A stretch of 64,000 nucleotides of DNA from Branchiostoma floridae (Eukaryota; Chordata; Leptocardii; Amphioxiformes; Branchiostomatidae): NCBI RefSeq assembly GCF_000003815.2, contig NC_049997.1:14424666-14488665 (forward strand). Direction: 5' to 3'. The notes beneath the pieces are model-generated. The model saw only the letters and a list, made by a program, of their open reading frames with translations. It did not search any database and was not told where the DNA came from. Positions 5,201 to 43,211 of this stretch are shown here, piece after piece; positions within the stretch are counted from its first letter, which is position 1, and each line of letters starts with the position of its first letter. The position numbers were made by a program, and so were the translations under genes.

Positions 5201-5680
5201 GGACCTATCTGGTAGTACCATCAGATGTAACTGCAACGTTCCCAGGCTTGAGGCTGTTATTGGTGGCTCTTTGCACGTTCTTCCAAATTCTATTGATTAT
5301 GACAGCATCTTCAAAGATCCCGACATCCTCAATGACAACAACCTCGTTTTCTACACGGTTATTGCCGAGTGGGCTCTCTACTTGGTGTTAATGATTATAC
5401 TCAACGTAGACTTTCAGCGTCTTCTAGTGAGTACATGTATTAACCGTTTTCGTAGTGTACAACCGCAACGTCACATTAGCATTTTCTTTAACTGTATAGC
5501 TTTCTTCCAGTGGTTTTATATTTCAATTCATTTTTTTTACAAGGGACGGAAGACTGATAGGTCAGCAACAACCGGCAATGAGAAGCAGTTACCGCTGCTG
5601 TCCGTCCTCCCACCGGACAGGATGCCAGCCCCATACCTCTACCAGATCACCGTTACCACTGGATCCGTGCTTGGTGCCGG
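711..5680 (+). CDS. polycystin-1-like protein, 5' half: GAIN/GPS, first TM, start of PLAT (multi-exon, cut by insertion)
   Basis: Exons, with splice phases that agree: 711-854, 1175-1265, 2066-2241, 3526-3753, 3858-4377, 4731-4849, 5193-5426 and 5544-5680. The product is the extracellular, GPS and first membrane part of a polycystin-1/PKDREJ-type protein. The first four exons encode the extracellular region before the GPS, with N-glycosylation sites such as NST. Exon 3858-4377 holds a WWDHSAAFRVFFRYG segment of the kind seen before GPS motifs. The GPS is split over 4731-4849 (SCLNWNHTLEKW...DCG) and 5193-5426 (RCNCNVPRLEAV), and the latter exon ends in a hydrophobic TM (EWALYLVLMIILNV). The PLAT domain begins at 5632 (YLYQITVTTGSVLGAG) and is interrupted after 5680. 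The GPS lacks the usual His-Leu-Thr/Ser cleavage tripeptide, so self-cleavage is doubtful. The gene starts outside the window; the exact paralogue is not certain. Confidence 0.88.
1531..1735 (+). repeat. tRNA-derived SINE in a polycystin intron
   Basis: The head looks like a tRNA with an A box (TGGCGCAGCGG) and a B box (GATCGAATCC) at the right spacing. A non-tRNA body follows, containing CTTGGGAAAGGCACTTTA and CCCTCGGATAGGACG. The same body, reverse-complemented, occurs at 62580-62970, so this is a dispersed family rather than a tRNA gene. The tRNA part has no clean cloverleaf. Confidence 0.75.
2251..2295. repeat. (AT)n microsatellite
   Basis: Uninterrupted AT dinucleotides just after the splice donor of exon 2066-2241. 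Confidence 0.95.
2370..2670 (+). repeat. degenerate LINE fragment
   Basis: Conceptual + strand translation, interrupted by stops, gives a motif series resembling the linker between endonuclease and reverse transcriptase of CR1/L2-type LINEs: a Trp-Lys-x-Leu block, FVPLKPRRPPRPKPLW, then Lys-rich segments with LWNKNT. It lies in a polycystin intron and has no intact reading frame. The family name is a guess from pattern. Confidence 0.5.
2723..3126. mobile_element. MITE-like inverted-repeat element
   Basis: The ends are inverted copies of each other: AGCCTCCTTCACCGGCTTCT on the left and its imperfect complement near 3095-3126, extending through a GTGGGC/GCCCAC block. Inside, a second hairpin (2827-2925) has arms reading CCGGGAATACGG... 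and ...CCTTTCCCGG. A related sequence lies at 55345-55545, so it is a dispersed family. No coding capacity. Confidence 0.7.
4731..5270 (+). other. GPS motif split by an intron, without canonical cleavage tripeptide
   Basis: The Cys/Trp framework of a GPS is present: Cys then Trp two residues later, WQDADCG, and the paired Cys-x-Cys of RCNCN. Directly after Cys-x-Cys the sequence is NVPRLEAV, whereas cleavable GPS motifs carry His-Leu-Ser/Thr. Polycystin-family members with altered tripeptides are known to be uncleaved; here that is inference from sequence only. Confidence 0.7.
5677..5680. repeat. target-site duplication, left copy (CCGG)
   Basis: CCGG immediately before the element; the matching copy is at 43208-43211. 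A 4-bp CCGG duplication is the preferred target of Ginger1 elements. Confidence 0.88.
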
Positions 5681-5990
5681 TGTTACAGAATTCTGGGGCC
5701 CCCCAGAATTCTGCGGCCCCCCTGGTCACGTGACCCAAATTTTGCATGCGGGGGCGTGGCCTGAAAACTACGATGGCCCACAAGGACATTCCCCATATAA
5801 ACTGGCTGGCACCAGAAACAAGCCTGTCGTCACATGTGTATCTGTACTGGGGGCCAACATTGAGACATTCTGGAGTCCAAATTATGTGGAAAAATTGTCC
5901 GTGCAATCTTTTCTAAAAATGAACTGTTTTTCTTATTATTATAGGTTTGCGTAGATATCAGCCTTACTAGATAAAACGATCTGTGAACTA
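5681..5990 (+). repeat. left terminal inverted repeat
   Basis: About 310 bp matching the reverse complement of 42866-43207, at roughly 90-95% identity by eye. The outermost part contains a near-perfect short palindrome (AGAATTCTGGGG / CCCCCCAGAATTCT). A perfect 12-bp palindrome GGTCACGTGACC lies at about 5722-5733. The TIR stays open in the frame of the interrupted PLAT exon up to a stop at about 5952. Confidence 0.92.
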
Positions 5991-6312
5991 GACCTGGGTT
6001 GAGCCATGGACAATCCATATCAAACTTGGACGTCAACAAGTTCTCCACAAGTACTTTAATGTCTTACTCCAAAAAGCGGTCTGTGAACTAGCTTTGTAAT
6101 TTAAGGAGGGGGGGGGGGGCCGAAATACCGGGTTGAGCCCTGGACTTTTGGGGCTCCCCTTCCCAGGGTACGAACGCTTTGCACAATCCTTATCAAACTT
6201 GGGCGTCAACAAGTTCCCCACAAGTACTTAAATGCCTTACTCCAAAAAGCGGTTTGTGAAGTAGCTTTGGAAATTTAAGAAGGGGGGCCCCAAAATACCG
6301 GGTCGGCCTTGA
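5991..6312 (+). repeat. subterminal satellite, two monomers (left)
   Basis: Two units of the roughly 170-bp satellite found at 9500-10607, same orientation. Each contains AAAAAGCGGTCTGTGAACTA, then the CCCTGGACTTTTGGGG block, and ends near a G/C-rich GGGGGGCCCC block. The array joins the TIR to the copied promoter region at 6313. Confidence 0.9.
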
Positions 6313-6455
6313 AATATTGTGAGTCGCCCCCGCACCCAGAATGGTTCCGTCGATCTGACCACGTGACCATACTACGTCATCTCTTCAGAGTTCCTCTCTA
6401 CAGTAACTCTGTTGGCGCCAGTAGCCATTGAGTCAAATTTGCTGCCTGTGCAGCC
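6313..6455 (+). promoter_or_regulatory. copied promoter/5' UTR of the transposase gene
   Basis: Matches, inverted, 35708-35845 upstream of the intact gene. Visible sites shared by both copies are an E-box (CACGTG) inside GACCACGTGACCAT, a CRE-like TACGTCA, and TTGGCGCCA, a perfect E2F-type site about 40 bp before the ATG. There is no TATA box. Function is inferred from motif and position only. Confidence 0.5.
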
Positions 6456-7622
6456 ATGGATCCAAGAAACTATGTATCAATTAGAAACTATGTATCGGGG
6501 AACGAATATCCTGAGGACGTGAAGACAAAAGAGGGGAAGCGTGCCTTTAGGAAAACGGCCGAACCGTTCGCCCTTGATGGTAAAGTGTTCCTTCAACTTT
6601 TGGTATTTCGTTAATGGAGATCAGAGGAAATTGTGAATTTGTCTTTATCTTATCTTGGGTCGAGGTGATTACTTCGTTTATAGAAGTATGAAATGGGGTT
6701 GAATCGTTTATATTCTCAACGGGTCCCTACGTTAACATCAACTCTCATAATTCCGCCAGGTGCCATAATAATGCCACGTCAAAAAACATTGTTATAGAGG
6801 CATTCTCAAGGTTGTCCTGAACATCTAACATTACATACACTCCAGATATTTAGGTGTTCAAGACAGCCTTGAGAATGCCTCTATAACAGTGATGTGGCGG
6901 TATTTAAGGTGAATGGGAGTTTCGGATCAGGTCAGTCTGGCTAATGTTATGGCTTTTTTTTTTCAACAGGCAATGGCACGTTAGTGTACAAGAAGAAGAT
7001 TAATGATCAAAAGCAAAAAAAAGAGATTCTGGTGAAGGTGCTTAAAGCTGGCCAAACTGAGGAGGTGTTTCACCAGTTTCACACTGATGAAACTGGTGGA
7101 CACAATGGCCAGGCTAAAACATTACATGCCATTGCAGTCCGATTCTACTGGCCCAATCAGTCAGTGCACATCAAGAAATGGGTAAGCATTCAGCTATTAT
7201 ATTTTGATCTTGTCAATTTGTTGTTAACATATGAGTTGAGATACTGTGTGATTGATGAGGGTGGCAGTCAGACTATATTCTGTACATATTTTACTATCAA
7301 TGGTATGAAGAGAACATGGCTAATGAGATATGTAACATTAGTTAAACTGCCATCTTGCTAAAAATAATTTTCCCCCAAACAACAGCCTTGTGACAACTTG
7401 TTATGCAACACATTCCTTTTTTAGTGTTCCAGCAGTGTTATATCACAGTTTTCATAGAATCATAATTGGATGACTGAGGAGACCAGGTTATTGTGACTTA
7501 CATCACATCTTTACATGTGCATCAATTCTTTTTGTTTACACCAATACATTTGCAGGTCAGCGAATGTAAAGGGTGTCAACTAGAAGATGCCTAGTGGTGT
7601 GGAAAACTTGCAACCCATTAAG
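6456..7622 (+). pseudogene. broken copy of transposase exons 1-3
   Basis: Exons 6456-6579 (124 nt), 6970-7181 (212 nt) and 7556-7622 match exons 1-3 of the intact - strand gene, with identical exon lengths and splice sites for the first two. Exon 2 still encodes an intact H2C2-type zinc finger. Exon 3 is 67 instead of 72 nt: a 5-nt loss plus substitutions after the CKGC motif shifts the frame to a stop at 7592-7594. No catalytic exons follow; the sequence then joins 3' UTR-like DNA at 8008. It is therefore a terminal remnant that could at most express an integrase N-terminal fragment of about 125 residues. Confidence 0.85.
6738..6925. mobile_element. palindromic MITE, copy 1 (copied intron 1)
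   Basis: Left arm AACTCTCATAATTCCGCC... and right arm are imperfect inverses, with an internal pair of arms around TATAGAGGCATTCTCAAGG. Related copies occur at 21541-21778, 26143-26355 and (truncated) 34738-34800. No coding capacity. Confidence 0.7.
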
Positions 7623-8007
7623 GTGATTGTTCTTTTTACTTTAATGGGGATTATGACATAATATAAATGTCTTTAAGTTCATGAGGTAAATCAATGTTGT
7701 GATAAGGGGAAAATGGACTGTTGAATTATGCAAATGACCTTCTCATTTACATAATTTATACATGGTGGTGTACACCTTTAACTAAATCAACAAGTAGATA
7801 ATTCCCACCATTTACCAATATTGAATCATGAAACTTCCACATTGATTATGCAAATTAGAGTCGCATTTTCATAGTTAGTATCTGTTTATGTTTCACCTTC
7901 CATGAATTATATATGTTACGTGAATGAACACATGAATTACAGATTTTCCTCATAAATCATGCAAATTTTTCCTGATTTGCAGTTCCAGAGCAAGCTGCTA
8001 GTGTCAA
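7623..8007 (+). other. non-coding junction between copied 5' exons and copied 3' UTR
   Basis: Begins as the start of intron 3 (GTGATTG as in the intact gene) and then diverges. It contains TTATGCAAAT-type segments like those in the dispersed repeats at 25434 and 31062, so the join between the two halves may have been made by, or covered by, such a repeat. No gene seen. Confidence 0.5.
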
Positions 8008-9235
8008 AACTATCTGTGGGTTTTGCGTATGGTGACCACCTGTTGTTGCCGCCATGATACCGTGGTCCGTCCGTGCCATGTTCGCTATGCAGTGTGTCTC
8101 TTGTATGTATATGATGTGTAGCCAACCTACTTTTCTACTATATGATATCAGGAAATTCTACACAAATCTAGAGCTCTCATGTGTATTGACTGTCTTAGTT
8201 CATGTCTATGTACTTGCTACTCAGAAGTGAGTCTAGTTCAACACACTTTGATGTTAGATTCTGTCAATAACGAGGCACTTGTAACTGTTTGCTTTCTTAT
8301 CTTTTTGACAAACTAATGTTTCCTGTCAGTTGAACCATTTTTTGCAATATTGGCTGTTTTAGAATTGTATGTAAGTTGTATGAGACTTTGGGACGGAATC
8401 AAAAGAATAGTTGAATTCTAATTTCCTATCCATTTTCGATTTTGCAAATGACTGATTGTAGCTGACAATGTGAGATTCTGAGTAAGAATTGAAGGTTACG
8501 GAGGTAAACAGCTTAAAATCTTGTAATCTATTTAAACCCAGGATATGTGTAGCTTGAAATAATTTGTTAACTTTGAGAACTGTAAAAATCAGGAAATTTC
8601 CACCATTGAAAGTGTGTTTAGCCAGAAGCGTTTGCAGCTGCAAGTGGAAATGTGTCACCCAAAATTCTGAAGTGAAATTGTGTCATAAGGCAACAAATTA
8701 AAGTGTGTTACTTTGCTTTTTCTCTTACCGGTTCAAGTCTTAAAACAATTTACGGCAAGTTTTTCTGTCATACCGTAGTTGTCCCTCAGACTGACTTAAC
8801 CCTTTGTCATCTACCCCCACTTCTGACAGTGTCAGTGCGGTATAGGGACACCCATTGTGTACCAAGGGTTAAACTGTATTCTGCCAAATTTGCAGTGTTT
8901 TCAAACTGGTGCATATTTCAGGGAACGGAACAGAAACAGCCAACTTTGTTAGTTCACTTCTTCGAGTTTCAATAAAGATCATTTATGATTAAACCAAATG
9001 TTCTCTGCATGGTTTTCGTGGCTTTCATTTCTAACAAATTTTCCAGGGGAGGAGGGCCCAAAAAATATCATGGCTCAACCCGTGTCCCGTGGCCCCGGGT
9101 TCTTGAATTTCTAAGTTCACTGAGGCCTCTTTTTGTAGTAAAACATTTAAGTACTTTTGTGCCACTTACCATAATTTACATGTGTTACATTTATTGAAGT
9201 CCAGGTATTGAAATAATGGTATTATACAATTTCCT
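8008..9235 (+). repeat. inverted copy of the transposase 3' UTR (left arm)
   Basis: Near-identical reverse complement of 13558-14779, with only scattered substitutions and one small indel seen by eye near 8910. It carries a polyadenylation signal (TTTCAATAAAG) at about 8968-8978. The two arms are separated by about 4.3 kb, so transcription across both could form a 1.2-kb double-stranded stem. Short open frames in the arm occur in both copies because the arms are nearly identical, and they are not counted as genes. Confidence 0.88.
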
Positions 9236-9499: not shown

Positions 9500-10607
9500 T
9501 AGGGCTCAACCTTAACGGGTAGAGCACTGGACTTTTGGGGCCCCCCTTCCCAGGGGACGAACGCTTTGCACAATCCTTATCAAACTTGGACGTCAACAAG
9601 TTCCCAACAAGAACTTTAATGTCTTACCAGAAAAAGCGGTCTGTGAACTAGCTTTGGAAATTTAAGGAGGGGGGCCCCAAAATACCGGGTTGAGCCCTGG
9701 ACTTTTGGGGCCCCCCTTCCCAGGGGACGAACGCTTTGCACAATCCTTATCGAACTTGGACGTCACCAAGTTCCCAACAAGTACTTTAATGTCTTACTAG
9801 AAAAAGCGGTCTGTGAACTAGCTTTGGAAATGTAAGGAGGGGGGGCCCCAAAATACCGGGGTGAGCCCTGGACTAGCTCTGGGTTGAGCCCTGGACTTTT
9901 GGGGCCCCCCTTCCAAGGGGACGAACGCTTTGCACAATCCTTATCAAACTTGGACGTCAACAAGTTCCCTACAAGTACTTTAATGTCTTACCAGAAAAAG
10001 CGGTCTGTGAACTAGCTTTGGAAATTTAAGGAGGGGGGCCCCAAAATACCGGGTTGAGCCCTGGACTTTTAGGCCCCCCCTTCCCAGGGGACGAACGCTT
10101 TGCACAATCCTTTTCAAACTTGGACGTCAACAAGTTCCCAAAACGTACTTTAATGTCTTACTAGAAAAAGCGGTCTGTGAACTAGCTTTGGAAATTTAAG
10201 GAGGGGGGCCCAAAATACCGGGTTGAGCCCTGGACTTTTAGGCCCCCCCCTTCCCAGGGGACGAACGCTTTGCACAATCCTTATCAAACTTGGACGTCAA
10301 CAAGTTCCCCACAAGTACTTTAATGTCTTACCAGAAAAAGCTGTCTGTGAACTAGCTTTGGAAATTTAAGGAGGGGGGCCCCAAAATACCGGGTTGAGCC
10401 CTGGACTTTTAGGTCCCCCCTTCCCAGGGGACGAACGCTTTGCACAATCCTTATCAAACTTGGACGTCAACAAGTTCCCCACAAGTACTTTAATGTCTTA
10501 CTAAAAAAAGCGGTCTGTGAACTAGCTTTGGAAATTTAAGGAGGGGGGCCCCAAAATACCGGATTGAGCCCTGGACTTTTAGGGCCCCCCTTCCCAGGGG
10601 ACGAACG
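9500..10607 (+). repeat. subterminal satellite array (left, about 6-7 monomers)
   Basis: Head-to-tail units with a 170-bp period (for example GAAATTTAAGGAGG at 10021, 10191 and 10361). Each has a block with GGACGAACGCTTTGCACAA, CTTGGACGTCAACAAG and a GGCCCC junction. It is the same satellite as 35860-42865 but inverted relative to it, so the two arrays face each other across the element. Confidence 0.93.
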
Positions 10608-12500
10608 CAATAGCCCAGGACCTAGAGTTAGCTTTTACTAGCTTTAGACTAGAGTAGACACCTTTGATATTGTTACCTGCATTTAGCCCACGGGCAAGAG
10701 GTAATAAACTTTATTATCATTAAAATCGGGTGTATGATTGCATTTGAAATGCGCAACAGAATTTTCCGTCCTGCGAATAGATGCGTATGGGGTACGTATG
10801 TTGGGCGTATTCCGGACGCACACAACGTCTACCGACCGCATGCCTGACGCACCTGGTGCTAAATGCATTCCAAACGCATTTCAGGTGTGTCAGTGGAACA
10901 GTTTCTGTTACTTATACTTTTGTTTGCGAGCATTGCCAATAGAGTAGTTTTGTTAGAGGAACACTTTGTACTACGTATACTTTTGTTTTCAGGCAGTGCA
11001 AGTAGAACAAGTAGAGGTTCGCCTACATTCAATGCTGAAATCAATTCCAAGCTTATGTTATTCACTCAAATGTTCATTGATCTTACTCAGCGTTTCTAGT
11101 CCTACTGTTACATTTCATGTGTAGAATTTACTACATTTATACATCATTGAATTGTCTACTTTGTACATGGGGTGGTAGGGGTGTTTTGGGCACACATGAC
11201 GTTAGTCGATTAGCTTGTTCAATTATTGTTTCTAATGTTGTTATATCTGTATTCATGTATTCAATCGTATGTTAAGTGGCACTGTTAAAATAAGTTTTTA
11301 AACTTGAGTGCAGTGCCACTTTGTCCTGTCAGCTTTTATGTTGAATAAAAAAAAGTCTATTGGGGACTTCTAATATTTAAGAAATCTTCGATAAAAAAAG
11401 TAGAACATTAATAAGTAGACAGTGAAGAGGGTTTTTTATTCATTTGCAAAGCAGTGAAGCAGTGACACTGTACTTTTATAGTAACGTGGGCCATCATTTA
11501 CCTTAAAAAATATATGCACTGTTAAGATTGTGTTTGTTTTCACTTTGTCCTTGATTTCCTCTAACATCTTAGTATTTCAAATACTACAAAAATCATACTC
11601 CACAAAACGTATTCAAGATCTTTATCAAACACGTAAATCAAACAATTATGAAACCTTACGCCCTCTTTCAAAGTTGTAATATGGTTCTATATTGCACCTT
11701 TACATCATGTGGTTCTACACACAAAAAGTATATTATCAGCAAATAAAGTCAAATATCTTTTACACAAAATGGCACGTGTTCATGTGTCACACAAATTGAC
11801 CCAGTGCTTCAGCAGGTTCCTCTACATCTTCCCTTCCCTGGAGGCTCTGTTTGGACCAGTTACATTCATGGTGTCCTGCAAGTTGTGACCATCTCTGCAT
11901 GCCCCCTGTACAAATTCGTCGGTCCTGGCCTGGATCTGCCGTCTTGAGATGATTTTTTTTGTCTGGACTCAGATGCACCTTCGTATTTATTCCATATCTG
12001 GAGTGTACGTCGATCACGCTATCAGTACGCGTAGTATGCGCAACCCGATCGCAGAACGCACGGTACTATATCGTGATCTATATGTGCATTCGTTATACGG
12101 TCGCTCATGGTGCGTTGTGTCTGCGCTGTAAGTACGCTATGTACTCGCAATACCGCGATATCCGCGTATTACTGCGCGTAAAGCGCAAACATGTAGCGTC
12201 TTCATAGCGCAATCGACCGACGTGGGACCACTGTATTGCGCATCCATAACGTTTTGGCCACCAAACTGCGTACGAATGATAGTTTTGTGCATGTCCAAAA
12301 CTATCAGGCGAACTTGGCGTATATTTTCGTTTGCCTGCGTTCGTGAAACTTTCTAAAAACGATTCAGATGCGTTTGAGGTGCGACTTGTGCGTGCGGCCG
12401 CGTATTGAAGAAATTAGTCAAAATGTCGAAAAATGTCAAAACGGACCTCATGCGGCATGAAAATATACGCAGGTGTGAACCCACCTTTAACTAGGCATTG
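10608..12500. other. non-coding segment, probably a nested mobile element
   Basis: No coding exon seen. 10738-10870 and 11990-12480 are unusually rich in GCGTAC/GCGCAA-type CpG words, and the right end finishes in GTGTGAACCCACC, which resembles ends of non-autonomous DNA transposons. I could not find a matching left end. The AT-rich middle (11100-11780) shows nothing recognisable. Confidence 0.35.
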
Positions 12501-12689: not shown

Positions 12690-12853
12690 TTCATTTCATT
12701 CTGGAGGTAATTTTCCTTTTGTCAATTTTTATCATTATTAGCACGCTTGTGGATTCCAAGAGAATGTCATCTATAAAATCAAATGAGCATGGCCTTACTG
12801 CCATGAAATATTCATGGCCATTATATTTTCTCCAGCGTTTGTGTGTGTGTGTA

Positions 12854-31400: not shown

Positions 31401-34400
31401 TTATCAATGTACTTCTCTTTCTCAGTTACAAAAGTCACATGTTGGAATAGTCCCATAATGGAACAGAGTGGGTTTATACAATTTCCTCGTAAATTATGCA
31501 AATTAGATTCCAATTTGCAAAATTAACATTGAACTTTATGAAACATCACTAAAGGTATCTACATACAAAATATCATGATGATCCATCAACCCCATCTTGA
31601 GTTATTCCCTTTCAACCTCTGACACTAAACTGGCCCCTGCAGCTAAAAAAAGCCGGCAGGGTGCCTAAACCTATATATATATATATGTATACCACTTACT
31701 CTCAGCTACAAGAGCTATCTACCACTTAAAAATCATGAGCATAGCATGTCCAGAACTGGAGATATAAAAAAAAGGAAGTTCCACTGCAGTAACGCAACAA
31801 GCCGCTAGGGGGCCCAAAATCTAATCGTTTCCAGGTGTTATCAAGACCTACCCACATACCGAATATCAAAACAATCTGTCCAGGCATTCTCGAGTTATGC
31901 TAGTCTTTTACATAAATACATACATACATACATACATACAAACATACATACATACATACAAGCACACAAACGCTACCAAAAATACCTTGTTGGCGAAGGT
32001 ACATACATGTAGATTAGTCAAAGTACAGATTAGTGAAAACGCAGATTGAGTTTATATTGAGAATTACATGGTAAATAATAATATGCTTTTATTGCACTTT
32101 ATCTAAAAAAAAAGGAATAAGGATATCATTACACATTTAACACATGCTGTAAACGTAGGGAAAAACTGTCCAAACTAATGCAAATCCACTGATATGCTAG
32201 CTATTGTTTCCAAGCCATCTTTGAATTGAAAGTTACTGCTAACCTTTTGATGTTTCCATTTGTCCTTTCATCTAACCCATTGGTTTGCGGGTGGTAGGCA
32301 GCTGTCACTTTATGTTTTGTCTTGAATGCATTGCAGATCAAATCATTCACCTGTCAAACAATATGGAGCACAGTCGCTTATAATTATCGGGTTATATCTG
32401 GGCCACATTGTGTGTGGCCATGCACATAAGAGAGATGCACTTCACAGCCTGAAAAAAACAGACTCTGAGGCAAGTAGCTCCAAACCCAACATCATAACCA
32501 CTAGGCCAAAAGGTCTGGACCTGCTTGACTAGTCATTTGGTGGCACTTGAACTCCATTGTTACATTGCCAACAATCTTCTTTCTTATATGAATGTATTAA
32601 GTTAGTGTAATTAGCTAGAAGTTAGAACATCTTCGATACTGTGGTCCACAATGATGAAATTAATGGCAGGCTTTAATACATTCAAAAATGCTGGTCAAAA
32701 TGTAGCAAAATCTGAATCAGATGTTTCAAGCATATCTTTATCTATAAACAGCTAAAATCAGAAAGACGAATGATATAATTCAGTAATTGAAAGTTGAGTT
32801 ATGATATGGGGTACTTACCTTGTTATTGAACTCTTTACCCTGATCTGTCAAGATTGCTTTGGCTGCACCATGTCTGGTATACATTTTCATGATGCATGCA
32901 GCCACAGAAACTGCTGACTTGTCTGCGATGGGGTATGCCTCGACCCATTTCGTAAAGTAATCAGTGGCACTGAAAATATATCTATTCCCTCTTGATGTTT
33001 CTGGCAATGGACCGATGAGGTCCATGCCAACAAGGTCCCATGGGCCTGTCACCTGTGTAAAAGTGAATGCGATGATAGACTTAAGGTACATATCGTCATT
33101 TTCAATAATTAAAATAAGGTACATATCAAAATTGATTTCTATTTATTCACAATACAAAAGGGACTCAAAGTTAAGCAAATAAGTCCCTTACATCATGCTA
33201 GTTCATGTTTTTCTCGTGGGGTATATATCCATTGTTTTGTATATCAATCATGTCAATTCATTGATTTGATATCCCTAAATACTTTAAATATTTTTGAAAA
33301 CAATAAATATAGGTAGGTTACCTCAATAAAGGGGAGCTAGCGTTGATCAAAAGTTAATGTTTCAGCTATAAGATAGAGATCATCCAAGTTGACAAATACA
33401 GTTCAGGGTTGGACAAGTCCACTCATTGTCCAGGGCAAGTGAAAGTGCTGTTCGGACGAGTGCATGACCTACCCCACTTGCCCGATCGGGCAAGATTTTT
33501 TCATTGATTGTTTGCAATTTTGAAACTACTTGTTACTTTTTACAGCCATGAGATCAAGCAATGGTCAACAGAGCTGGAATTGCTGGAAATGAAAATGCAT
33601 ATACTACAAATGTAGTAATCGTGACATTTACAAAATTGGTTTGGGCAAGTAAATTTTTTGTGTGCTTGCCCGATAGGACAAGTAAATTTAAAAAAAACTT
33701 GTCCAACCCTGCAGTTGTTAAGTTTCTGGAGTGATTCCCGTAGAAGTCTAATTTTCACCAAGAATGATTATAGAATTAATTATAGAATTAGAGTTGTACT
33801 AGAATCAAGCATTCAGTGTCTTGTAATGTCATCTGTTGACATCTTTGGCTATCTAGCATATCTAACCCTAACAAAAGACTGATTAAGTAAAAATCAATCC
33901 TTTTTGAACAATACACAAGACATTTATGTTATATCATAATCATATCATAAATATAATATCATATCATAAATATAAAGTAAAAAGAACAATCACCTTAATG
34001 GGCTGCAATGTCCTCACACCACTAGGCATATTTTTCATAGCTTGACATCCTTTACATTCCCTGACCTGCAATGTATTGGCGTAATAAAAATAATTGATGC
34101 ACACGTAAAGCTGTGATGTAAGTCACAATAACCTGGTCTCCTCAGTCATCCCAAGGACGTTATATCACATGTGATATAACATCCTTGATCATCCAATTAT
34201 GATTCTATGAAAACTGTGATATAACACTGCTGGAACACTAAAAAAGGAATGTGTTGCATAACAAGTTGTCACAAGGCTGTTGTTTGGGGGAAAATTATTT
34301 TTAGCAAGATGGCAGTTTAACTAATGTTACATATCTCATTAGCCATGTTCTCTTCATACCATTGATAGTAAAATATGTACAGAATATAGTCTGACTGCCA

Positions 34401-35707
34401 CCCTCATCAATCACACAGTATCTCAACTCATATGTTAACAACAAATTGACAAGATCAAAATATAATAGCTGAATGCTTACCCATTTGTTGATGTGCACTG
34501 ACTGATCAGGCCAGTAGAATCGGACTGCAATGGCATGTATTGTTTTCTCCCGGCCACTGTGTCCACCAGTTTCATCAGTGTGAAACTGGTGAAACACCTC
34601 CTCAGTTTGGCCAGCTTTAAGCACCTTCACCAGAATCTCTTTTTTTTGCTTTTGATCATTAATCTTCTTCTTGTACACTAACGTGCCATTGCCTGTTGAA
34701 AAAAAAAAGCCATAACATTAGCCAGACTGACCTGATCCGAAACTCCCATTCACCTTAAATACCGCCACATCAAAAACACTGTTATGGAGGCTTTGAAAGT
34801 TTGACTACACTGCCAGTCATTCCTACAATATAGTGGCTATCAGAAATGGTCCTGCATAAGAGAAACGAACAACACAAACAACACTTCATACAACCCCCTC
34901 ACATACAAGTTGACACATATAAACACATAGGATAACGTACATCCATTCCTACATCCATGCGCACTGAGACTTTATGTTTGAGACATTTGTTTCAAATTTG
35001 ATGTTTTGGCAAACTTCTCTCTTCCTATGGTCCCAACTGTTGTCTTGGGTGTCCACTTTCCACAAGGAAATTTCATAGGAGGCCCAAACATTCTTTCTTT
35101 AGGCCTGACTGGAATTTTGGCCGAAGGGAATATACAATATACCATGTTTACATGTCAAAGAACTGTGGATGCTGGTTGTTCATTGCTGCACAATACCCCC
35201 CAACCAAATGTGAAAAACGGTTGCCTTCTGTCCAATGCTCCCAGCAGCAGCAGCAGTTGTCGTCACCCAGTTTTAGCTTTGACAAATCCATTAGGCACCA
35301 ACCCCCCATTCATAGCCTTGGGGCTCAAAAAGGGTCTCAGAAAAGCCTGCAGGCTAGCCTGCTGGGCCCAGGGTTTTCCGTAAACCCTTAACGTTAACGT
35401 TATAGTACAAGCAGACTTAAATTGCATGTGATCTAGGGAACCGTTGAGAATATAAACGATTCAACCCCATTTCATACTTCTATAAACGAAGTAATCACCT
35501 CGACCAAAGACAAGATCAAGACAAATTCACAATTTCCTCTGATCTCCATTAACGAAATACCAAAAGTTGAAGGAACACTTTACCATCAAGGGCGAACGGT
35601 TTGGCCTTTTTCCTAAAGGCACGCTTCGCCTCTTTTGTCTTCACGTCCTCAGGATATCCGTTCCCCGACACATAGTTTCTAATTGATACATAGTTTCTTG
35701 GATCCAT
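15607..35707 (-). CDS. Ginger1-type transposase: gypsy-like integrase-Ulp1 protease-PHD-UBA fusion, 24 exons
   Basis: Exons (- strand order): 35584-35707, 34481-34692, 33994-34065, 32819-33052, 32244-32350, 30801-30972, 28746-30551, 28134-28181, 27684-27770, 27227-27298, 26985-27073, 26564-26669, 25284-25377, 24917-24969, 23426-23531, 22131-22217, 21432-21494, 20716-20808, 20227-20307, 18592-18636, 18103-18234, 17697-17807, 16425-16481 and 15607-16046. They sum to 4,491 nt (1,496 residues plus stop); every junction keeps phase and no internal stop is seen. Domains: YPYY-like N terminus, H2C2 finger (about 75-130), DDE core (D147, D206, E242), GPY/F (about 388), 39-residue repeats (443-855), Ulp1 protease (about 900-1043), PHD-like finger (1075-1127), UBA (1250-1294), C-terminal Cys module (1351-1496). 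It should cut and join element ends. Exons 16-20 and the start of exon 19 are less certain. Confidence 0.88.
17080..17465. repeat. short-motif tandem cluster and inverted tRNA-like SINE pieces in an intron
   Basis: 17100-17260 repeats GTCTTGAGACC/GGTCTCAAGAC words. 17290-17345 contains GGCCCAGGTTCAAATCCTGG and 17380-17460 its inverse type (CCCAGGATTCGAACCTAGG with AAGCCAAAAGGTC). These are tRNA B-box-like pieces in opposite orientation, with a related fragment at 32460-32525. No cloverleaf is intact. Confidence 0.5.
18103..18234 (-). other. UBA domain exon
   Basis: The exon encodes SLVEMGFELKAAKQAAKH ... LESAVDWVLEH, the three-helix pattern of a UBA domain with its Met-Gly-Phe loop and the final Ala-Val-x-Trp-Leu/Val helix. 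UBA domains bind ubiquitin. Phase 1 at both ends fits the neighbouring small phase-1 exons, a pattern that favours exon shuffling. Confidence 0.85.
19048..19443. mobile_element. MITE with about 36-bp TIRs in an intron
   Basis: The ends read AGGCCCAGGAAAAAAATG on the left and its inverse on the right (...TTTTTTTCCTAGGCCT), extending through GTTGTGTTTCCTGTTT / AAACAGGAAACACAAC. No coding capacity. Confidence 0.75.
21541..21778. mobile_element. palindromic MITE, copy 2
   Basis: Starts ACATCAACTCTCATAATTCC and ends with the inverse ...GGAATTATGAGAGTTGAT, with internal arms around CAACCTTGAGAAGGCC. Same family as 6738-6925. Confidence 0.8.
22327..23206. mobile_element. MITE with about 35-bp TIRs filled with GGCTG-type tandem words
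   Basis: Left end ATGCCTAGGTTACACATAGC and right end ...GCTATGTGTAACCTAGGCAT are inverse copies that continue into GAATTTGGCTCC/GGAGCTAAATTC. TA flanks both ends, a possible 2-bp duplication. Both subterminal regions are arrays of short TCGGCTGGTGTTCGG-like words, perhaps transposase-binding sites. No gene inside. Confidence 0.85.
23426..24969 (-). other. PHD-like zinc finger (two exons)
   Basis: The Cys/His series over 24917-24969 and 23426-23531 is YRCSMCGEMCDHEK then CNCQYPFSFHAECLKK ... FCDFCRW. It has C-x2-C, paired Cys, His-x2-Cys and a final C-x2-C, the layout of a PHD or RING-like finger. It may read histone tails or act with the ubiquitin-type domains; only the metal-binding framework is visible. 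Confidence 0.7.
25434..26041. repeat. dispersed repeat ending in (CA)n/(CAGA)n, in an intron
   Basis: Starts near AGACCTCATATCTCCATGAG, carries several TTATGCAAAT/ATTTGCATAA words, and ends with CA/CAGA microsatellite and TACCTCCATTTTTTCATGGA. The CTCCATGAG / CATGGAGG ends are imperfect inverses. Related to 31062-32005 and 12690-13510. Confidence 0.7.
26143..26355. mobile_element. palindromic MITE, copy 3 (degenerate)
   Basis: Begins TTGACTCTCATAATTCC and ends near ATTTATGATAGTC. Shares ATACCGCCAC and TTCTCAAG words with copies 1 and 2. Confidence 0.6.
26564..28770 (-). other. Ulp1/C48-like cysteine protease domain
   Basis: Built over six exons. The entry motif KAWLNDA-VINAVLYSL matches the Ulp1 hallmark Trp-Leu-Asn-Asp. 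Catalytic positions are His974 in SSHWTLV, Asn991 in ILYFNSFG (usually Asp; an Asp-to-Asn change occurs in some cysteine proteases), Gln1031 and Cys1037 in HQKDSHSCGLYV. Ulp1 enzymes process SUMO or related modifiers. In Ginger1 a protease at this place is known; its substrate is not. Confidence 0.85.
28330..28640. other. non-coding intron with a short inverted repeat
   Basis: ATCACATAAATCTATATGGCC at 28485 and its inverse at about 28570-28595 form a hairpin around an AT-rich core. No known element recognised. Confidence 0.4.
28908..30146 (-). repeat. in-frame minisatellite encoding 39-residue repeats
   Basis: Ten full and one partial 117-bp units, almost identical, inside exon 28746-30551. 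Each unit encodes a Ser/Thr/Glu-rich segment containing NLPGSSVTSDSTEAH and HTPSESTGGTFSS. Differences are few (Val-Thr/Val-Met, Lys/Glu, Asp/Glu), so the array expanded recently. It links the GPY/F segment to the protease and is likely disordered. Confidence 0.95.
31062..32005. repeat. dispersed repeat ending in (CATA)n, in an intron
   Basis: Starts GAGTTCCACGACCTCATACC with TTCGCCAAATG and ends ATACCTTGTTGGCGAAGGTA after a CATA microsatellite (31915-31975). The TTCGCCAA / TTGGCGAA ends are inverse. The 5' end alone recurs at 54308-54345. Confidence 0.7.
33403..33712. mobile_element. hAT-like MITE in an intron
   Basis: Starts CAGGGTTGGACAAGT and ends with the inverse, ACTTGTCCAACCCTG. CAGGG...CCCTG ends are typical of hAT elements. 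Internal GGGCAAGT/ACTTGCCC words repeat. I could not see a convincing 8-bp duplication. Confidence 0.8.
34152..34187. mobile_element. 36-bp near-perfect palindrome inserted relative to the sister copy
   Basis: Two 18-bp arms (CAAGGACGTTATATCACA and its complement with one mismatch). The copied intron at about 7460-7480 lacks it and has one TCATCC/GGATGA word, whereas here TCATCC occurs on both sides (34146-34151 and 34189-34194), as expected for a 6-bp target duplication. Confidence 0.65.
34738..34800. mobile_element. palindromic MITE, truncated copy 4
   Basis: Holds the AACTCCCATTCACCTTAAAT end seen at the right of copy 1 and breaks off after GTTATGGAGGC. It sits at the same intron 1 position as copy 1 in the left pseudogene; the rest has been replaced by unrelated DNA up to about 35430. 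Confidence 0.65.
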
Positions 35708-35859
35708 GGCTGCACAGGCAGCAAATTTGACTCAATGGCTACTGGCGCCAACAGAGTTACTGTAGAGAAGAACTCTGAAGAGATGACGTAGTATAGTCAC
35801 GTGGTCAGATCGACGGAACCATTGTGGGTGCGGGGGCGACTCACAATATTTCAGGGCCG
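35708..35859 (-). promoter_or_regulatory. probable promoter/5' UTR of the transposase gene
   Basis: Conserved with the copy at 6313-6455: TTGGCGCCA (E2F-type), a TACGTCA (CRE-like) element and CACGTG. It lies between the ATG at 35707 and the first satellite monomer. No TATA box is visible. Regulation by these factors is inference. Confidence 0.5.
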
Positions 35860-36345
35860 ACCCGGTATTTTGGGGCCCCCCTTCTTAAATTTCCAAAGCT
35901 ACTTCACAAACCGCTTTTTGGAGTAAGACATTAAAGTACTTGTAGGGAACTTGTTGACGTCCAAATTTGATAAGGTTTGTGCAAAGCGTTCGTCCCCTTG
36001 GAAGGGGGGCCCCAAAAGTCCAGGGCTCAACCCAGGGCTAGTCCAGGGCTCACCCCGGTATTTTGAGGCCCCCCTCCTTAAATTTCCAAAGCTAGTTCAC
36101 AGACCGCTTTTTTTAGTAAGACATTAAAGTACTTGTTGGGAACTTGTTGACGTCCAAGTTTGATAAGGATTGTGCAAAGCGTTCGTCCCCTGGGAAGGGG
36201 GGCCCTAAAAGTCCAAGTCCAGGTATCAACCCCCGTATTTTGGGGGCCCCCTCCTTAAATTTCCAAAGCTAATTCACAGACCGCTTTTTTTTAGTAAGAC
36301 ATTAAAGTACTTGTGGGGAACTTGTTGACGTCCAAGTTTGATAAG

Positions 36346-36769
36346 NNNNNNNNNNNNNNNNNNNNNNNNNNNNNNNNNNNNNNNNNNNNNNNNNNNNNNN
36401 NNNNNNNNNNNNNNNNNNNNNNNNNNNNNNNNNNNNNNNNNNNNNNNNNNNNNNNNNNNNNNNNNNNNNNNNNNNNNNNNNNNNNNNNNNNNNNNNNNNN
36501 NNNNNNNNNNNNNNNNNNNNNNNNNNNNNNNNNNNNNNNNNNNNNNNNNNNNNNNNNNNNNNNNNNNNNNNNNNNNNNNNNNNNNNNNNNNNNNNNNNNN
36601 NNNNNNNNNNNNNNNNNNNNNNNNNNNNNNNNNNNNNNNNNNNNNNNNNNNNNNNNNNNNNNNNNNNNNNNNNNNNNNNNNNNNNNNNNNNNNNNNNNNN
36701 NNNNNNNNNNNNNNNNNNNNNNNNNNNNNNNNNNNNNNNNNNNNNNNNNNNNNNNNNNNNNNNNNNNNN
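36346..36769. other. assembly gap (N) in the satellite
   Basis: Run of N; true satellite length unknown. Confidence 0.99.
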
Positions 36770-38197
36770 ATTTTGGGGGGCCCCCCTCTCTAAATTTCCA
36801 AAAGTTAATTTCCCAGAACGTTTTTTTTTTAATAAGACATTAAAGGTTTTTGTGGGGAACTTGTTGACGTCCAAGTTTGATAAGGGATGGGGCAAAGCGT
36901 TCGTCCCCTCGGAAGGGGGGCCTCAAAAGTCCAGGGCTCAACCCAGAGTTAGTCCAGGGCTCAACCCGGTATTATGAGGCCCCCCCTCCTTAAATTTCCA
37001 AAGCTAATTCACAGACCGCTTTTTTTAGTAAGACATTAAAGTACTTGTGGGGAACTTGTTGACGTCCAAGTTTGATAAGGATGTGCAAAGCGTGCGTCCC
37101 CTGGGAAGGGGGGACCCAAAAGGCCAGGTATCAACCCGGTATTTTGGGGCCCCCCTCCTTAAATTTCCTAAGCTAGTTCACAGACCGCTTTTTTTAGTAA
37201 GACATTAAAGTACTTGTGGGGAACTTGTTGACGTCCAAATTTGATAAGGTTTGTGAAAAGCGTTTGTCCCCTTGGAAGGGGGGCCCCAAAAGTCCAGGGC
37301 TCAACCCGGTATTTTGGGGCCCCCCTCCTTAAATTTCCTAAGCTAGTTCACAGACCGCTTTTTTTAGTAAGACATTAAAGTACTTGTGGGGAACTTGTTG
37401 ACGTCCAAATTTGATAAGGTTTGTGAAAAGCGTTTGTCCCCTTGGAAGGGGGGCCCCAAAAGTCCAGGGCTCAACCCGGTATTTTGGGGACCCCTCCTTA
37501 AATTTCCTAAGCTAGTTCAAAGACCGCTTTTTTTAGTAAGACATTAAAGTACTTGTGGGGAACTTGTTGACGTCCAAATTTGATTAGGTTTGTGAAAAGC
37601 GTTTGTCCCCTTGGAAGGGGGGCCCCAAAAGTCCAGGGCTCAACCTAGGGCTAGTCCAGAGCTCACCCCGGTAATTTGGGGCCCCCCTCCTTAAATTTCC
37701 TAAGCTAGTTCACAGACCGCTTTTTTTAGTAAGACATTAAAGTACTTGTGGGGAACTTGTTGACGTCCAAATTTGATAAGGTTTGTGCAAAGCGTTCGTC
37801 CCCTTGGAAGGGGGGGCCCAAAAGTCCAGGGCTCAACCCAGGGCTAGTCCAGGGCTCAACCCGGTATTTTGAGGCCCCCTTCCTTAAATTTCCAAAGCTA
37901 GTTCACAGACCGCTTTTTTTAGTAAGACATTAAAGTACTTGTGGGGAACTTGTTGACGTCCAAATTTGATAAGGTTTGTGAAAAGCTTTTGTCCCCTTGG
38001 AAGGGGGGCCCCAAAAGTCCAGGGCTCAACCCGGTATTTAGGGGCCCCCCTCCTTAAATTTCCTAAGCCAGCTCACAGACCGCTTTTTTTAGTAAGACAT
38101 TAAAGTACTTGTGGGGAACTTGTTGACGTCCAAATTTGATAAGGTTTGTGAAAAGCGTTTGTCCCCTTGGAAGGGGGGCCCCAAAAGTCCAGGGCTC

Positions 38198-38584
38198 NNN
38201 NNNNNNNNNNNNNNNNNNNNNNNNNNNNNNNNNNNNNNNNNNNNNNNNNNNNNNNNNNNNNNNNNNNNNNNNNNNNNNNNNNNNNNNNNNNNNNNNNNNN
38301 NNNNNNNNNNNNNNNNNNNNNNNNNNNNNNNNNNNNNNNNNNNNNNNNNNNNNNNNNNNNNNNNNNNNNNNNNNNNNNNNNNNNNNNNNNNNNNNNNNNN
38401 NNNNNNNNNNNNNNNNNNNNNNNNNNNNNNNNNNNNNNNNNNNNNNNNNNNNNNNNNNNNNNNNNNNNNNNNNNNNNNNNNNNNNNNNNNNNNNNNNNNN
38501 NNNNNNNNNNNNNNNNNNNNNNNNNNNNNNNNNNNNNNNNNNNNNNNNNNNNNNNNNNNNNNNNNNNNNNNNNNNNNNNNNNNN
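38198..38584. other. assembly gap (N) in the satellite
   Basis: Run of N inside near-identical higher-order repeats. Confidence 0.99.
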
Positions 38585-39501
38585 ACCCCGTATATTGGGG
38601 CCCCCCTCCTTAAATTTCCAAAGCTAATTCACAGACCGGTTTAGTCAGTAAGACATTAAAGTACTTGTGGGGAACTTGTTGACGTCCAAATTTGATAAGG
38701 TTTGTGAAAAGCGTTTGTCCCCTTGGAAGGGGGGCCCCAAAAGTCCAGGGCTCAACCCGGTATTTTGGGGCCCCCCTCCTTAAATTTCCTAAGCTAGTTC
38801 ACAGACCGCTTTTTTTAGTAAGACATTAAAGTACTTGTGGGGAACTTGTTGACGTCCAAATTTGATAAGGTTTGTGAAAAGCGTTTGTCCCCTTGGAAGG
38901 GGGGCCCCAAAAGTCCAGGGCTCAACCCGGTATTTTGGGGACCCCTCCTTAAATTTCCTAAGCTAGTTCAAAGACCGCTTTTTTTAGTAAGACATTAAAG
39001 TACTTGTGGGGAACTTGTTGACGTCCAAATTTGATTAGGTTTGTGAAAAGCGTTTGTCCCCTTGGAAGGGGGGCCCCAAAAGTCCAGGGCTCAACCTAGG
39101 GCTAGTCCAGAGCTCACCCCGGTAATTTGGGGCCCCCCTCCTTAAATTTCCTAAGCTAGTTCACAGACCGCTTTTTTTAGTAAGACATTAAAGTACTTGT
39201 GGGGAACTTGTTGACGTCCAAATTTGATAAGGTTTGTGCAAAGCGTTCGTCCCCTTGGAAGGGGGGGCCCAAAAGTCCAGGGCTCAACCCAGGGCTAGTC
39301 CAGGGCTCAACCCGGTATTTTGAGGCCCCCTTCCTTAAATTTCCTTAGCTAGTTCAAAGACCGCTTTTTTTAGTAAGACATTAAAGTACTTGTGGGGAAC
39401 TTGTTGACGTCCAAATTTGATAAGGTTTGTGAAAAGCGTTTGTCCCCTTGGAAGGGGGGCCCCAAAAGTCCAGGGCTCAACCCAGGGCTAGTCCAGAGCT
39501 C

Positions 39502-39698
39502 NNNNNNNNNNNNNNNNNNNNNNNNNNNNNNNNNNNNNNNNNNNNNNNNNNNNNNNNNNNNNNNNNNNNNNNNNNNNNNNNNNNNNNNNNNNNNNNNNNN
39601 NNNNNNNNNNNNNNNNNNNNNNNNNNNNNNNNNNNNNNNNNNNNNNNNNNNNNNNNNNNNNNNNNNNNNNNNNNNNNNNNNNNNNNNNNNNNNNNNNN
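39502..39698. other. assembly gap (N) in the satellite
   Basis: Run of N inside the satellite. Confidence 0.99.
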
Positions 39699-42600
39699 GG
39701 TATTTTGGGGCCCCCCTCGTTAAATTTCCAAAGCTAATTCACAGACCGCTTTTTTTAGTAAGACATTAAAGTACTTGTGGGGAACTTGTTGACGTCCAAA
39801 TTTGATAAGGTTTGTGCAAAGCGTTCGTCCCCTGGGAAGGGGGGCCCCCAAAAGTCCAGGTATCAACCCCGTATTTTGGGGCCCCCCTCCTTAAATTTCC
39901 AAAGCTAATTCACAGACCGCTTTTTTTAGTAAGACATTAAAGTACTTGTGGGGAACTTGTTGACGTCCAAATTTGATAAGGTTTGTGAAAAGCGTTCGTC
40001 CCTTGGAAGGGGGCCCCCAAAAGTCCAGGGCTCAACCCAGGGCTAGTCCAGGGCTCACCCCGGTATTTTGAGGCCCTCCTCCTTAAATTTCCTAAGCTAG
40101 TTCACAGACCACTTTTTTTTAGTAAGACATTAAAGTACTTGTGGGGAACTTGTTGACGTCCAAGTTTGATAAGGATTGTGCAAAGCGTTCGTCCCCTGGG
40201 AAGGGGGGCCCCAAAAGTCCAGGGCTCAACCCGGTATTTTGGGGCCCCCCTCCTTAAATTTCCAAAGCTAATTAACAGACCGCTTTTTTTAGTAAGACAT
40301 TAAAGTACTTGTGGGGAACTTGTTGACGTCCAAATTTAATAAGGTTTGTGCAAAGCGTTCGTCCCCTTGGAAGGGGGGCCCCAAAAGTCCAGGGCTCACC
40401 CAGGGCTGTCCGGGCTCACCCCGGTATTTTGAGGCCCCCCTCCTTAAATTTCCAAAGCTAGTTCACAGACCGTCTTTTTTTAGTAAGACATTAAAGTACT
40501 TGTTGGGAACTTGTTGACGTCCAAGTTTGATAAGGATTGTGCAAAGCGTTCGTCCCCTGGGAAGGGGGGCCCCAAAAGTCCAGGTATCAACCCCCGTATT
40601 CTGGTGCCCCCCTCCTTAAATTTCCAAAGCTAATTCACAGACCGCTTTTTTTAGTAAGACATTAAAGTACTTGTGGGGAACTTGTTGACGTCCAAGTTTG
40701 ATAAGGATTGTGCAAAGCGTTCGTCCCCTTGGAAGGGGGGCCCCAAAAGTCCAGGGCTCAACCCAGAGCTAGTCCAGGGCTCAACCCGGTATTTTGAGGC
40801 CCCCCTCCTTAAATTTCCAAAGCTAATTCACAGACCGCTTTTTTTTAGTAAGACATTGAAGTACTTGTGGGGAACTTGTTGACGTCCAAGTTTGATAAGG
40901 TTTGTGAAAAGCGTGCGTCCCCTGGGAAGGGGGAGCCCAAAAGGCCAGGTATCAACCCGGTATTTTGGGGCCCCCTCCTTAAATTTCTTAAGCTAGTTCA
41001 CAGACCGCTTTTTAGTAAGACATTAAAGTACTTGTGGGGAACTTGTTGACGTCCAAGTTTGATAAGGATTGTGCAAAGCGTGCGTCCCCTGGGAAGGGGG
41101 GCCCCAAAAGTCCAGGGCTCAACCCGGTATTTTGAGGCCCCCCTCCTTAAATTTCCTAAGCTAGTTCACAGACCGCTTTTTTTAGTAAGACATTAAAGTA
41201 CTTGTGGGGAACTTGTTGACGTCCAAATTTGATAAGGTTTGTGCAAAGCGTTCGTCCCCTTGGAAGGGGGCCCCAATAGTCCAGGGCTCAACCCAGGGCT
41301 AGTCCAGAGCTCACCCCGGTATTTTGAGGCCCCCCTCCTTAAATTTCCTAAGCTAGTTCACAGACCGCTTTTTTTAGTAAGACATTAAAGTACTTGTGGG
41401 GAACTTGTTGACGTCCAAGTTTGATAAGGATTGTGCAAAGCGTGCGTCCCCTGGGAAGGGGGGGGGGCCCAAAAGTCCAGGCATCAACCCGGTATTTTGG
41501 GGCCCCCCTCCTTAAATTTCCTAAGCTAATTCACAGACCGCTTTTTTTTGTAAGACATTAGAGTACTTGTGGGGAACTTGCTGACGTCCAAATTTGATAA
41601 GGTTTGTGAAAAGCGTTCGTCCCTTGGAAGGGGGCCCCAAAAGTCCAGGGCTCAACCCAGGGCTAGTCCAGGGCTCACCCCGGTATTTTGAGGCCCCCCT
41701 CCTTAAATTTCCTAAGCTAGTTCACAGACCACTTTTTTTTAGTAAGACATTTAAGTACTTGTGGGGAACTTGTTGACGTTCAAATTTGATAAGGATTGTG
41801 CAAAGCGTTCGTCCCCTGGGAAGGGGGGCCCCAAAAGTCCAGGGCTCAACCCGGCATTTTGGGGCCCCCCTCCTTAAATTTCCAAAGCTAATTCACAGAC
41901 CGCTTTTTTTAATAAGACATTAAAGTACTTGTGGGGAACTTGTTGACGTCCAAGTTTGATAAGGTTTGTGCAAAGCGTTCGTCCCCTTGGAAGGGGGGCC
42001 CCAAAAGTCCAGGGCTCAACCCAGGGCTAGTCCAGGGCTCACCCCGGTATTTGGGGCCGCCCTCCTTAAATTTCCAAAGCGAGTTTAAAGACCGCTTTAT
42101 CTAGTAAGACATTAAAGTACTTGTGGGGAACTTGTTGACGTCCAAGTTTGATAAGGTTTGTGCAAAGCGTTCGTCCCCTGGGAAGGGGGGCCCCAAAAGT
42201 CCAGTGCTCAACCCAGAGCTAGTCCAGGGCTCAACCCGGTATTTTGAGGCCCCCCTCCTTAAATTTCCAAAGCTAGTTCACAGACCGCTTTTTTTAGTAA
42301 GACATTAAAGTACTTGTTGGGAACTTGTTGACGTCCAAGTTTGATAAGGATTGTGCAAAGCGTTCGTCCCCTGGGAAGGGGGGACCCAAATGTCCACGGC
42401 TGAAACCGGTATTTTGGGGCCCCCCCTCCTTAAATTTCCAATGCTAGTTCACATACCCCTTTTTGGAGTAAGACATTAAAGCACTTGTTGGGAATTTGTT
42501 GACGTCCAAGTTTGATAAGGCTTGTGCAAAGCGTTCGTCCCCTGGGAAGGGGGGACCCAAAAGTCCAGGGCTCAACCCGGTATTTTGGGGTCCCCCTTCT

Positions 42601-42865
42601 TGGCTAGTTCACAGAGCTTAACCCGGTATTTTGGCCCCCCCCTCCTTAAATTTCCAAAGCTAGTTCACAGACCGCTTTTTCTAGTAAGACATTGAAGTTC
42701 TTATTGGGAACTTGTTGACGTCCAAGTTTGATAAGGATTGTGCAAAGCGTTCGTCGTCTGGGGAGGGGGGCCTCAAAATTTCAGGGCTCAACCCGATATT
42801 TTGGGGCCCCCCTTCTTGGCTAGTTTACAGTGCTCAACCCGGTATTTTGGGGCCCCCTTCTTGGC

Positions 42866-43207
42866 TAGTTCACAGAACGTTTTATCTAGCAAGGCTGATA
42901 TCTACGCAAACCTATAATAATAAAAAACAAAGTTTATTTTTAGAAACGATTGCACGGACCATTTTCCCACATAATTAAGACTCCACAGTGTCATAATGTT
43001 GGCCCTCAATACAGATACACATGTGACGACAAGCTTGTTTCTGATGCCAGCCAGTGTATATGGGGAATGTCCTTGTGGGCCTTCGTAGTTTTCAGGCCAC
43101 GCCCCCGCATGCAAAATTTGGGTCACGTGACCAGGGGGGCCGCAGAAATTTGGGTCACGTGACCAGGGGGGCCGCAGAATTCTGGGGGGCCCCAGAATTC
43201 TGTAACA
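42866..43207 (-). repeat. right terminal inverted repeat
   Basis: Inverse of 5681-5990, ending GAATTCTGTAACA. It is 32 bp longer because the block with GGGTCACGTGACC and GGGGGGCCGCAGAA is present twice in tandem (starts 43120 and 43152) against once on the left. From an ATG at 43060 it is open in the frame of the downstream PLAT half-exon. Confidence 0.92.
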
Positions 43208-43211
43208 CCGG
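43208..43211. repeat. target-site duplication, right copy (CCGG)
   Basis: CCGG directly after the element, matching 5677-5680; the host exon resumes at 43212. Confidence 0.88.

Follow-up and report, generated by a model that had tools for sequence, protein, structure and literature searches.

The genome assembly of the amphioxus Branchiostoma floridae (513 Mb, 431 contigs, cited here as C1, C2 and so on) contains, in the 64,000-nucleotide stretch C19:14424666-14488665 (hereafter the window, to which positions without a contig name refer), an element of 37,527 bp (5681-43207, including 1,008 N) that splits a host exon. Its ends, target site and gene content are best explained by a giant autonomous DNA transposon of the Ginger1 type, with foldback-like ends and an integrase-type cut-and-paste mechanism, a reading to which we give a probability of roughly 0.83. 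Short copies of the same family lie elsewhere in the genome, together with a second, ~52-kb element of the same build, an indication that elements of this size form a type and did not arise by accident.

Ends and insertion site

The element starts TGTTACAG at 5681 and ends CTGTAACA at 43207, within terminal inverted repeats (TIRs) that a preliminary description of this DNA had put at about 310 and 342 bp, and that measure 311 and 343 bp. Positions 5702-5991 and 42865-43154 are 92% identical in inverted orientation, and the difference in length is that of a tandem 32-bp unit in the right repeat (43114-43186). CCGG stands on both sides, as had been reported. The reported continuity of the host exon also holds, since removal of the element and one CCGG leaves 216 bp, or 72 codons with the phase kept, open in one of the three frames and bordered by an AG ending at 5543 and a GT at 43291.

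Searched against the genome, the 72-residue host peptide gives 48 matches, of which two are the window's own halves and seven, spanning residues 1-72 or 2-72 at 79-82% identity, are uninterrupted paralogous exons; no near-identical empty allele was found in this search, the best other match being 82%. The exon had been described as encoding a PLAT domain. The split is real, but the label is weak, as the Pfam match scores 19.2 bits (E 0.002), under the curated cut-off of 23 bits. Pfam matches to a polycystin domain and a channel domain lie downstream at 47098-47739, and by these predicted domains the host gene is polycystin-like and ion-channel-like. The insertion documents a large exon-splitting event with an exact target duplication.

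The predicted transposase gene and the rest of the interior

The largest part of the element is a predicted transposase gene that spans 20,101 of the 37,527 bp (54%), with 16,288 bp in introns. The preliminary description had ascribed the bulk to satellite, nested elements and a rearranged second copy; these do make up much of the remainder, but not the largest part, and an interior consisting mostly of nested debris was rejected because a continuous 20.1-kb gene model fits. Exon blocks were taken from open frames, Pfam matches and similarity to relatives on C6, and their borders were then picked by eye. All 14 predicted introns are GT-AG with the phase kept, and the joined frame runs for 1,270 codons with no internal stop, a fit of phase that is partly a matter of choice because of the way in which the borders were set.

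Four domains score above the curated Pfam cut-offs: H2C2 (PF17921, 1.1e-15), rve (PF00665, 2e-11), Peptidase_C48 (1.2e-10) and UBA_7 (5.5e-9). Among solved structures, relatives of the N-terminal half of the protein include the PFV and Ty3 integrases, and those of the second half SENP5 and UBA-bearing hydrolases. Residues in exons 4 and 5 we take, by motif, to be the D, D and E of the integrase core. A GPY/F motif, WLGPYVIEG, was read by eye in exon 7. Exon 1 has a Y-P followed by F and F at plausible places, a possible counterpart of the Ginger1 YPYY motif that lies upstream of the zinc finger. A 39-residue unit, encoded by an in-frame 117-bp minisatellite (28916-30151, 98% matching), is repeated 10.6 times in the segment that separates the GPY/F motif from the Ulp1 domain. 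A relative on C6 holds a different short repeat at this position, and the order of its UBA and acidic blocks differs from that of the window gene (weak matches). From its open frames the transposase gene is apparently intact.

The likeness to PFV and Ty3 integrases would also be expected of a gypsy-type long terminal repeat (LTR) retrotransposon or of a Polinton remnant. That the element is one of these, and not a cut-and-paste transposon, is extremely improbable: its terminal repeats are inverted, not direct, and are flanked by a 4-bp CCGG duplication; reverse transcriptase and RNase H were not found in the Pfam-scanned subset of open reading frames or in the two gene halves; and the introns and Ulp1 domain are as in published Ginger1 elements.

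The remaining features are collected in Table 1. Satellite arms built of 170/193-bp units lie inside both ends, facing each other, with a further ~1.7 units at 6010-6303. A block of 3,224 bp separates the left end from the left arm. Most of it duplicates, in inverted orientation, the right end and the 3' region, and it would have arisen by template switching during gap repair or by recombination between the inverted arms. That this block is a second complete element was considered and rejected, as it is without a second pair of ends. Nested repeats were identified in genome DNA searches with 14777-20500, 20501-26500 and 10609-14776, in each of which 40 of thousands of candidates were scored, so that low-copy repeats within these segments may be missed. 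Outside the element, the open frame at 58954-59493 resembles a C-type lectin domain.

Table 1. Coordinates of the element, its predicted gene and its insertion site in the window.
Feature	Position	Strand	Basis
Target site duplication CCGG, left copy	5677..5680	.	Read from sequence
Target site duplication CCGG, right copy	43208..43211	.	Read from sequence
Interrupted host exon, 5' part including left CCGG	5544..5680	+	Exon rejoining, paralogue search
Interrupted host exon, 3' part	43212..43290	+	Exon rejoining, paralogue search
Left TIR, TGTTACAG..., 311 bp	5681..5991	+	End comparison
Right TIR, ...CTGTAACA, 343 bp	42865..43207	-	End comparison
31-bp subterminal motif common to second family, left end	5752..5782	+	Motif search (C19:14430417-14430447)
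31-bp subterminal motif common to second family, right end	43074..43104	-	Motif search (C19:14467739-14467769)
Left satellite arm, 170/193-bp units, 1,093 bp, inverted relative to right arm	9516..10608	+	Repeat and self comparison
Right satellite arm, 170/193-bp units, 6,966 bp including three N gaps	35852..42817	-	Repeat and self comparison
Inverted copy of right-arm satellite and exon 1 region	6010..6741	+	Matches 36173-35422, 92.8%
Inverted copy of exon 2-3 region	6890..7643	+	Self comparison (6890-7473 vs 34772-34189, 98.6%; 7436-7643 vs 34181-33973, 86%)
Inverted copy of 3' region 13561-14776	8009..9233	+	97.6%
Nested high-copy dispersed repeat, blocks 10732-11009 and 11398-12490	10732..12490	.	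Genome DNA search
Nested dispersed repeat, ~394 bp, intron 12	19051..19444	.	Genome DNA search
Nested dispersed repeat, ~880 bp, own short inverted ends, intron 12	22324..23204	.	Genome DNA search
Transposase gene, 15 predicted exons, 1,270 amino acids	15607..35707	-	Open frames, Pfam, C6 relatives
Exon 1, start codon and YPYY-like motif	35584..35707	-	Predicted
Exon 2, first half of H2C2 zinc finger	34481..34692	-	Predicted
Exon 3, CxxC half of zinc finger	33994..34065	-	Predicted
Exon 4, integrase core with two Asp	32819..33052	-	Predicted
Exon 5, integrase core with Glu	32244..32350	-	Predicted
Exon 6	30807..30972	-	Predicted
Exon 7, GPY/F motif, 39-residue tandem repeat, start of Ulp1 domain	28746..30551	-	Predicted
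Exon 8, Ulp1 domain	28134..28181	-	Predicted
Exon 9, Ulp1 His (HW)	27227..27298	-	Predicted
Exon 10, Ulp1 Asp position, Asn here	26985..27073	-	Predicted
Exon 11, Ulp1 Cys (QKDSHSCG)	26564..26669	-	Predicted
Exon 12	25284..25377	-	Predicted
Exon 13, UBA domain	18103..18234	-	Predicted
Exon 14, acidic stretch	17697..17807	-	Predicted
Exon 15, C-terminal CQGC domain (zinc-like) and stop	15607..16046	-	Predicted

Other copies and a second giant family

The preliminary description had proposed a genome search for further copies with CCGG flanks, and ends of this family (family 1) were found at nine other loci, so that the refuting outcome named there, a lack of other copies with matching ends, did not occur. 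The left end gives 33 matches, of which three are in the window, 16 at these loci, and 14 only 60 bp long. Six loci hold two-ended short copies (C3 8.13, C1 35.3, C9 25.34, C2 9.25, C2 18.49 and C6 19.24 Mb) and three hold single ends (C17, C12 and C3 15.59 Mb). With the window included, 13 of the 15 readable junctions are CCGG, one is CCGT and one CAGC. All six two-ended copies carry satellite inside their ends, opposite in orientation in the two arms; those at C2 18.49 Mb and on C6 are without the outer part of one end, and in the C9 copy one end holds an insertion. Window-type ends and satellite together cover 3,755 of 3,755 non-N bases of the C3 copy, 4,368 of 4,369 on C1, 3,609 of 3,609 on C9 (up to the insertion), 5,406 of 5,473 at C2 18.49 Mb, 5,076 of 5,250 on C6 and 4,652 of 6,470 at C2 9.25 Mb, so that in five of the six such sequence makes up at least 96%. 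None of 80 integrase matches in the genome falls in the short copies. Over the 11 ends compared, identity among the short-copy ends is 96.9-99.7%, except for the C6 copy (94.0-95.9%); the window ends are 93% identical to each other and match the short-copy ends at 91-95%. These identities suggest a recent burst of short copies that would not be direct offspring of the window copy. The C9 copy is interrupted in its right end by a foreign insert of ~8.6 kb (C9:25345053-25353649, L011:4253 to L012:3150) whose ends are GTAGGCATAGCGAACC and its reverse complement, with a CAAAT duplication.

In the integrase search the window is the sole exact match, the next best being three matches on C6 at 70-72%, with stop codons. 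Relatives of the gene do exist, with exon matches of 65-74% on C6, and degraded ones with 85-92% DNA identity over ~200-600 bp at C6 21.57 and 19.73 Mb. The existence of many gene-bearing copies was considered and rejected, the best other matches being 71-72, 74 and 55%, many with stops. Integrase relatives cluster on C6 (19.5-27.9 Mb), a contig that makes up 5.5% of the genome: all five zinc-finger matches outside the window and eight of the ten integrase-core matches outside it at 55% identity or more fall there, a clustering that simple binomial values overstate because of dependence among the matches (several exons from single elements, one duplicated pair).

The nine other loci with similar ends and satellite, together with the three N gaps of the right satellite arm (36346-36769, 38198-38584 and 39502-39698), raise the question of an assembly join: the copy in the exon would be short and non-autonomous, and the interior with the gene would have been pulled in from another locus through the common satellite. 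This is very unlikely. There is no N run in 5681-36345, so the left junction runs gap-free through the gene, and no second full interior match appeared in the genome searches with parts of the element, those with DNA scoring 40 candidates each.

A second giant lies on C6, where integrase exons (near 19.550-19.552 Mb) are followed by Ulp1 exons (near 19.559 Mb), a UBA-like block (near 19.566 Mb) and, at 19573936, the C-terminal domain. Downstream lies an array whose 58-bp units form multiples of 112 and 170 bp, and then a right end, TGTTCCAG, beside CCGG at 19581188. A matching left end is at 19529178, also beside CCGG, and the satellite is opposite in orientation. The whole comes to 52,011 bp with assembly gaps inside (read in parts), and its integrase exon contains one stop. 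Comparing the C6 flanks directly revealed no terminal repeat; a 31-bp similarity, together with an end flanked by CCGG, led to the ends of this second family (family 2). Within this element, ~14 kb upstream of its main H2C2 exon, lies a second H2C2-like exon (C6:19536644-19536874, 49% identity); both giants may therefore carry a duplicated 5' gene part.

Ends of ten family-2 copies were tallied, with N at one end of the C147 copy, and with C4, C156 and C6 25.94 Mb left out. Duplications match in eight of the nine copies readable on both sides, namely the giant (CCGG) and seven of eight short copies (TCAC, CATG, CAGG, CCAT, CCGA, CAGG and CCTG), the mismatch being at C6 22.90 Mb (GCCT/CCTG). 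Comparison of the satellites of the two families revealed no similarity. Common to both is the 31-bp subterminal motif, with 34 genome-wide matches at two or fewer mismatches against none for a reversed-pattern control. Inverted pairs of this motif 1.4 and 2.4 kb apart (C1:9870096-9871491 and C10:3048869-3051244) suggest a third, short family.

A further possibility is that a short Ginger1-type element inserted into the exon and grew in place to 37.5 kb as its satellite expanded, other repeats inserted into it and it recombined with a further copy. The nested dispersed repeats, satellite arms that vary in length between copies, and the degraded gene relatives on C6 are all consistent with such growth. 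It is nonetheless unlikely, as a continuous 20.1-kb gene model would not arise from a copy made of ends and satellite, the searches with parts of the gene found no other intact copy that could have served as donor, and an independent 52-kb element with a matching CCGG pair exists.

Several observations weigh against a giant autonomous transposon. Target duplications match in only three of the five family-1 copies readable at both ends (window, C3 and C1), the flanks being CCGG/CCGT on C9 and CCGG/CAGC at C2 9.25 Mb, and family-2 targets are looser than the CCGG or CCGT published for Ginger1. The C2 9.25 Mb copy has, between its arms, 1,779 bp without a match in the ends or satellite of the window element, as two stretches of 840 bp (L014:3819-4658) and 939 bp (L014:4759-5697) that lie between N gaps. 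The window copy is not the direct parent of the short copies, because its ends resemble theirs less closely than theirs resemble one another. The 15-exon splice model is purely predicted, with borders picked by eye, and at the Asp position of the Ulp1 triad, in alignment to SENP5, the window gene has Asn, where the C6 relative has Asp. Lastly, the right arm is scaffolded because of its three gaps, and satellite growth and nested repeats may be later than the insertion.

Mechanism, known relatives and significance

On the favoured explanation of a giant autonomous transposon, the 15-exon gene would be spliced to give a 1,270-residue integrase-type transposase with Ulp1-like protease, UBA and zinc-like C-terminal domains, the protease and UBA domains having putative roles. 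The enzyme would bind the terminal repeats, where the 31-bp motif conserved between the families is a candidate site, cut at TGTT/AACA and, in the manner of gypsy-like integrases, insert the element at a target cut with a 4-bp stagger, which in the window family is mostly CCGG. Tandem repeats just inside the ends would grow into satellite arms facing each other, and internally deleted copies keeping little but ends and arms would be the form that spreads, non-autonomously; the inverted, internally deleted piece of element at the left end would most likely reflect gap repair with a template switch. The ends, the target duplications, the continuous exon, the open exon blocks with their domains, the other family members and the second family are seen in the sequence itself. 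The preliminary description had proposed a single mobile unit; this stands as the best reading, but movement of all 37.5 kb as one unit, by cut and paste and perhaps still today, is what we infer.

Published Ginger1 elements measure ~2.6-7 kb, with ends of ~40-270 bp, enzymes of ~500-800 amino acids and 0-4 introns (Bao, Kapitonov and Jurka 2010, PMC2836005), and the single amphioxus Ginger1 family tabulated there, Ginger1-1_BF, has 4,068 bp, 77-bp repeats and no protease domain. The window element shares with the Ginger1 described there the 4-bp CCGG duplication, TGTNR ends (TGTTA here), TIRs, H2C2, DDE and GPY/F, a C-terminal Ulp1 domain, and introns, which supports the initial assignment to this type by ends, target site and domain content. 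It differs in size (37.5 kb, and ~52 kb for the second giant, several times the published range, in line with the early impression of an element far longer than those known), in its 311/343-bp ends, in its 1,270 residues, 14 predicted introns and satellite arms, and in its UBA and CQGC domains, which lie outside the C-terminal domains given in PMC2836005. The published range of repeat lengths is taken as descriptive, not defining, so that ends of 311 and 343 bp still fit Ginger1.

Galileo (PMC3573991) and Tetris (PMC4079207) likewise have long, internally repetitive inverted ends, two-end-only copies, single ends, and satellite-like tandem units in the ends, and Tetris has supplied satellite units (PMC4079207). 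Galileo, however, belongs to the P superfamily (PMC3573991), and Tetris is apparently non-autonomous (PMC4079207), whereas the enzyme here is of the gypsy-integrase type. By its sequence organisation, the element is built like a foldback element and is not a member of the Galileo family, its predicted enzyme not being a P-type transposase. In size it falls in the tens-of-kilobases class of giant eukaryotic transposons (PMC6431247); in passages of that review, Ginger figures as the Hydra Ginger1-4 element used for comparison in an illustration, as a candidate origin of Polinton enzymes, and among the references. In passages of an oyster paper that contains both terms, Ginger1 serves only to name a satellite in one table, and foldback comes up only in a reference. 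UBA does not occur in the one paper searched for it. A search of literature titles and abstract openings, outside which subscription journals and Repbase entries lie, turned up no foldback or giant Ginger1, and the best reading is therefore a new, giant, foldback-type variant within the known Ginger1 kind.

There is an even chance, in our estimation, of something broader, namely an undescribed class of giant satellite-armed integrase transposons in amphioxus-type genomes, with at least two families (37.5 and ~52 kb) that would move whole, grow satellites independently and seed short foldback copies in trans, the enzyme of the window copy still working. If the giant elements are what they appear to be, the size range of gypsy-integrase cut-and-paste elements would be extended several-fold, a foldback architecture would be placed on a DDE-integrase chassis, and satellite DNA would have grown inside transposon arms in two independent cases. 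The apparently intact gene and the young-looking short copies make it testable whether such an enzyme moves tens of kilobases of DNA.

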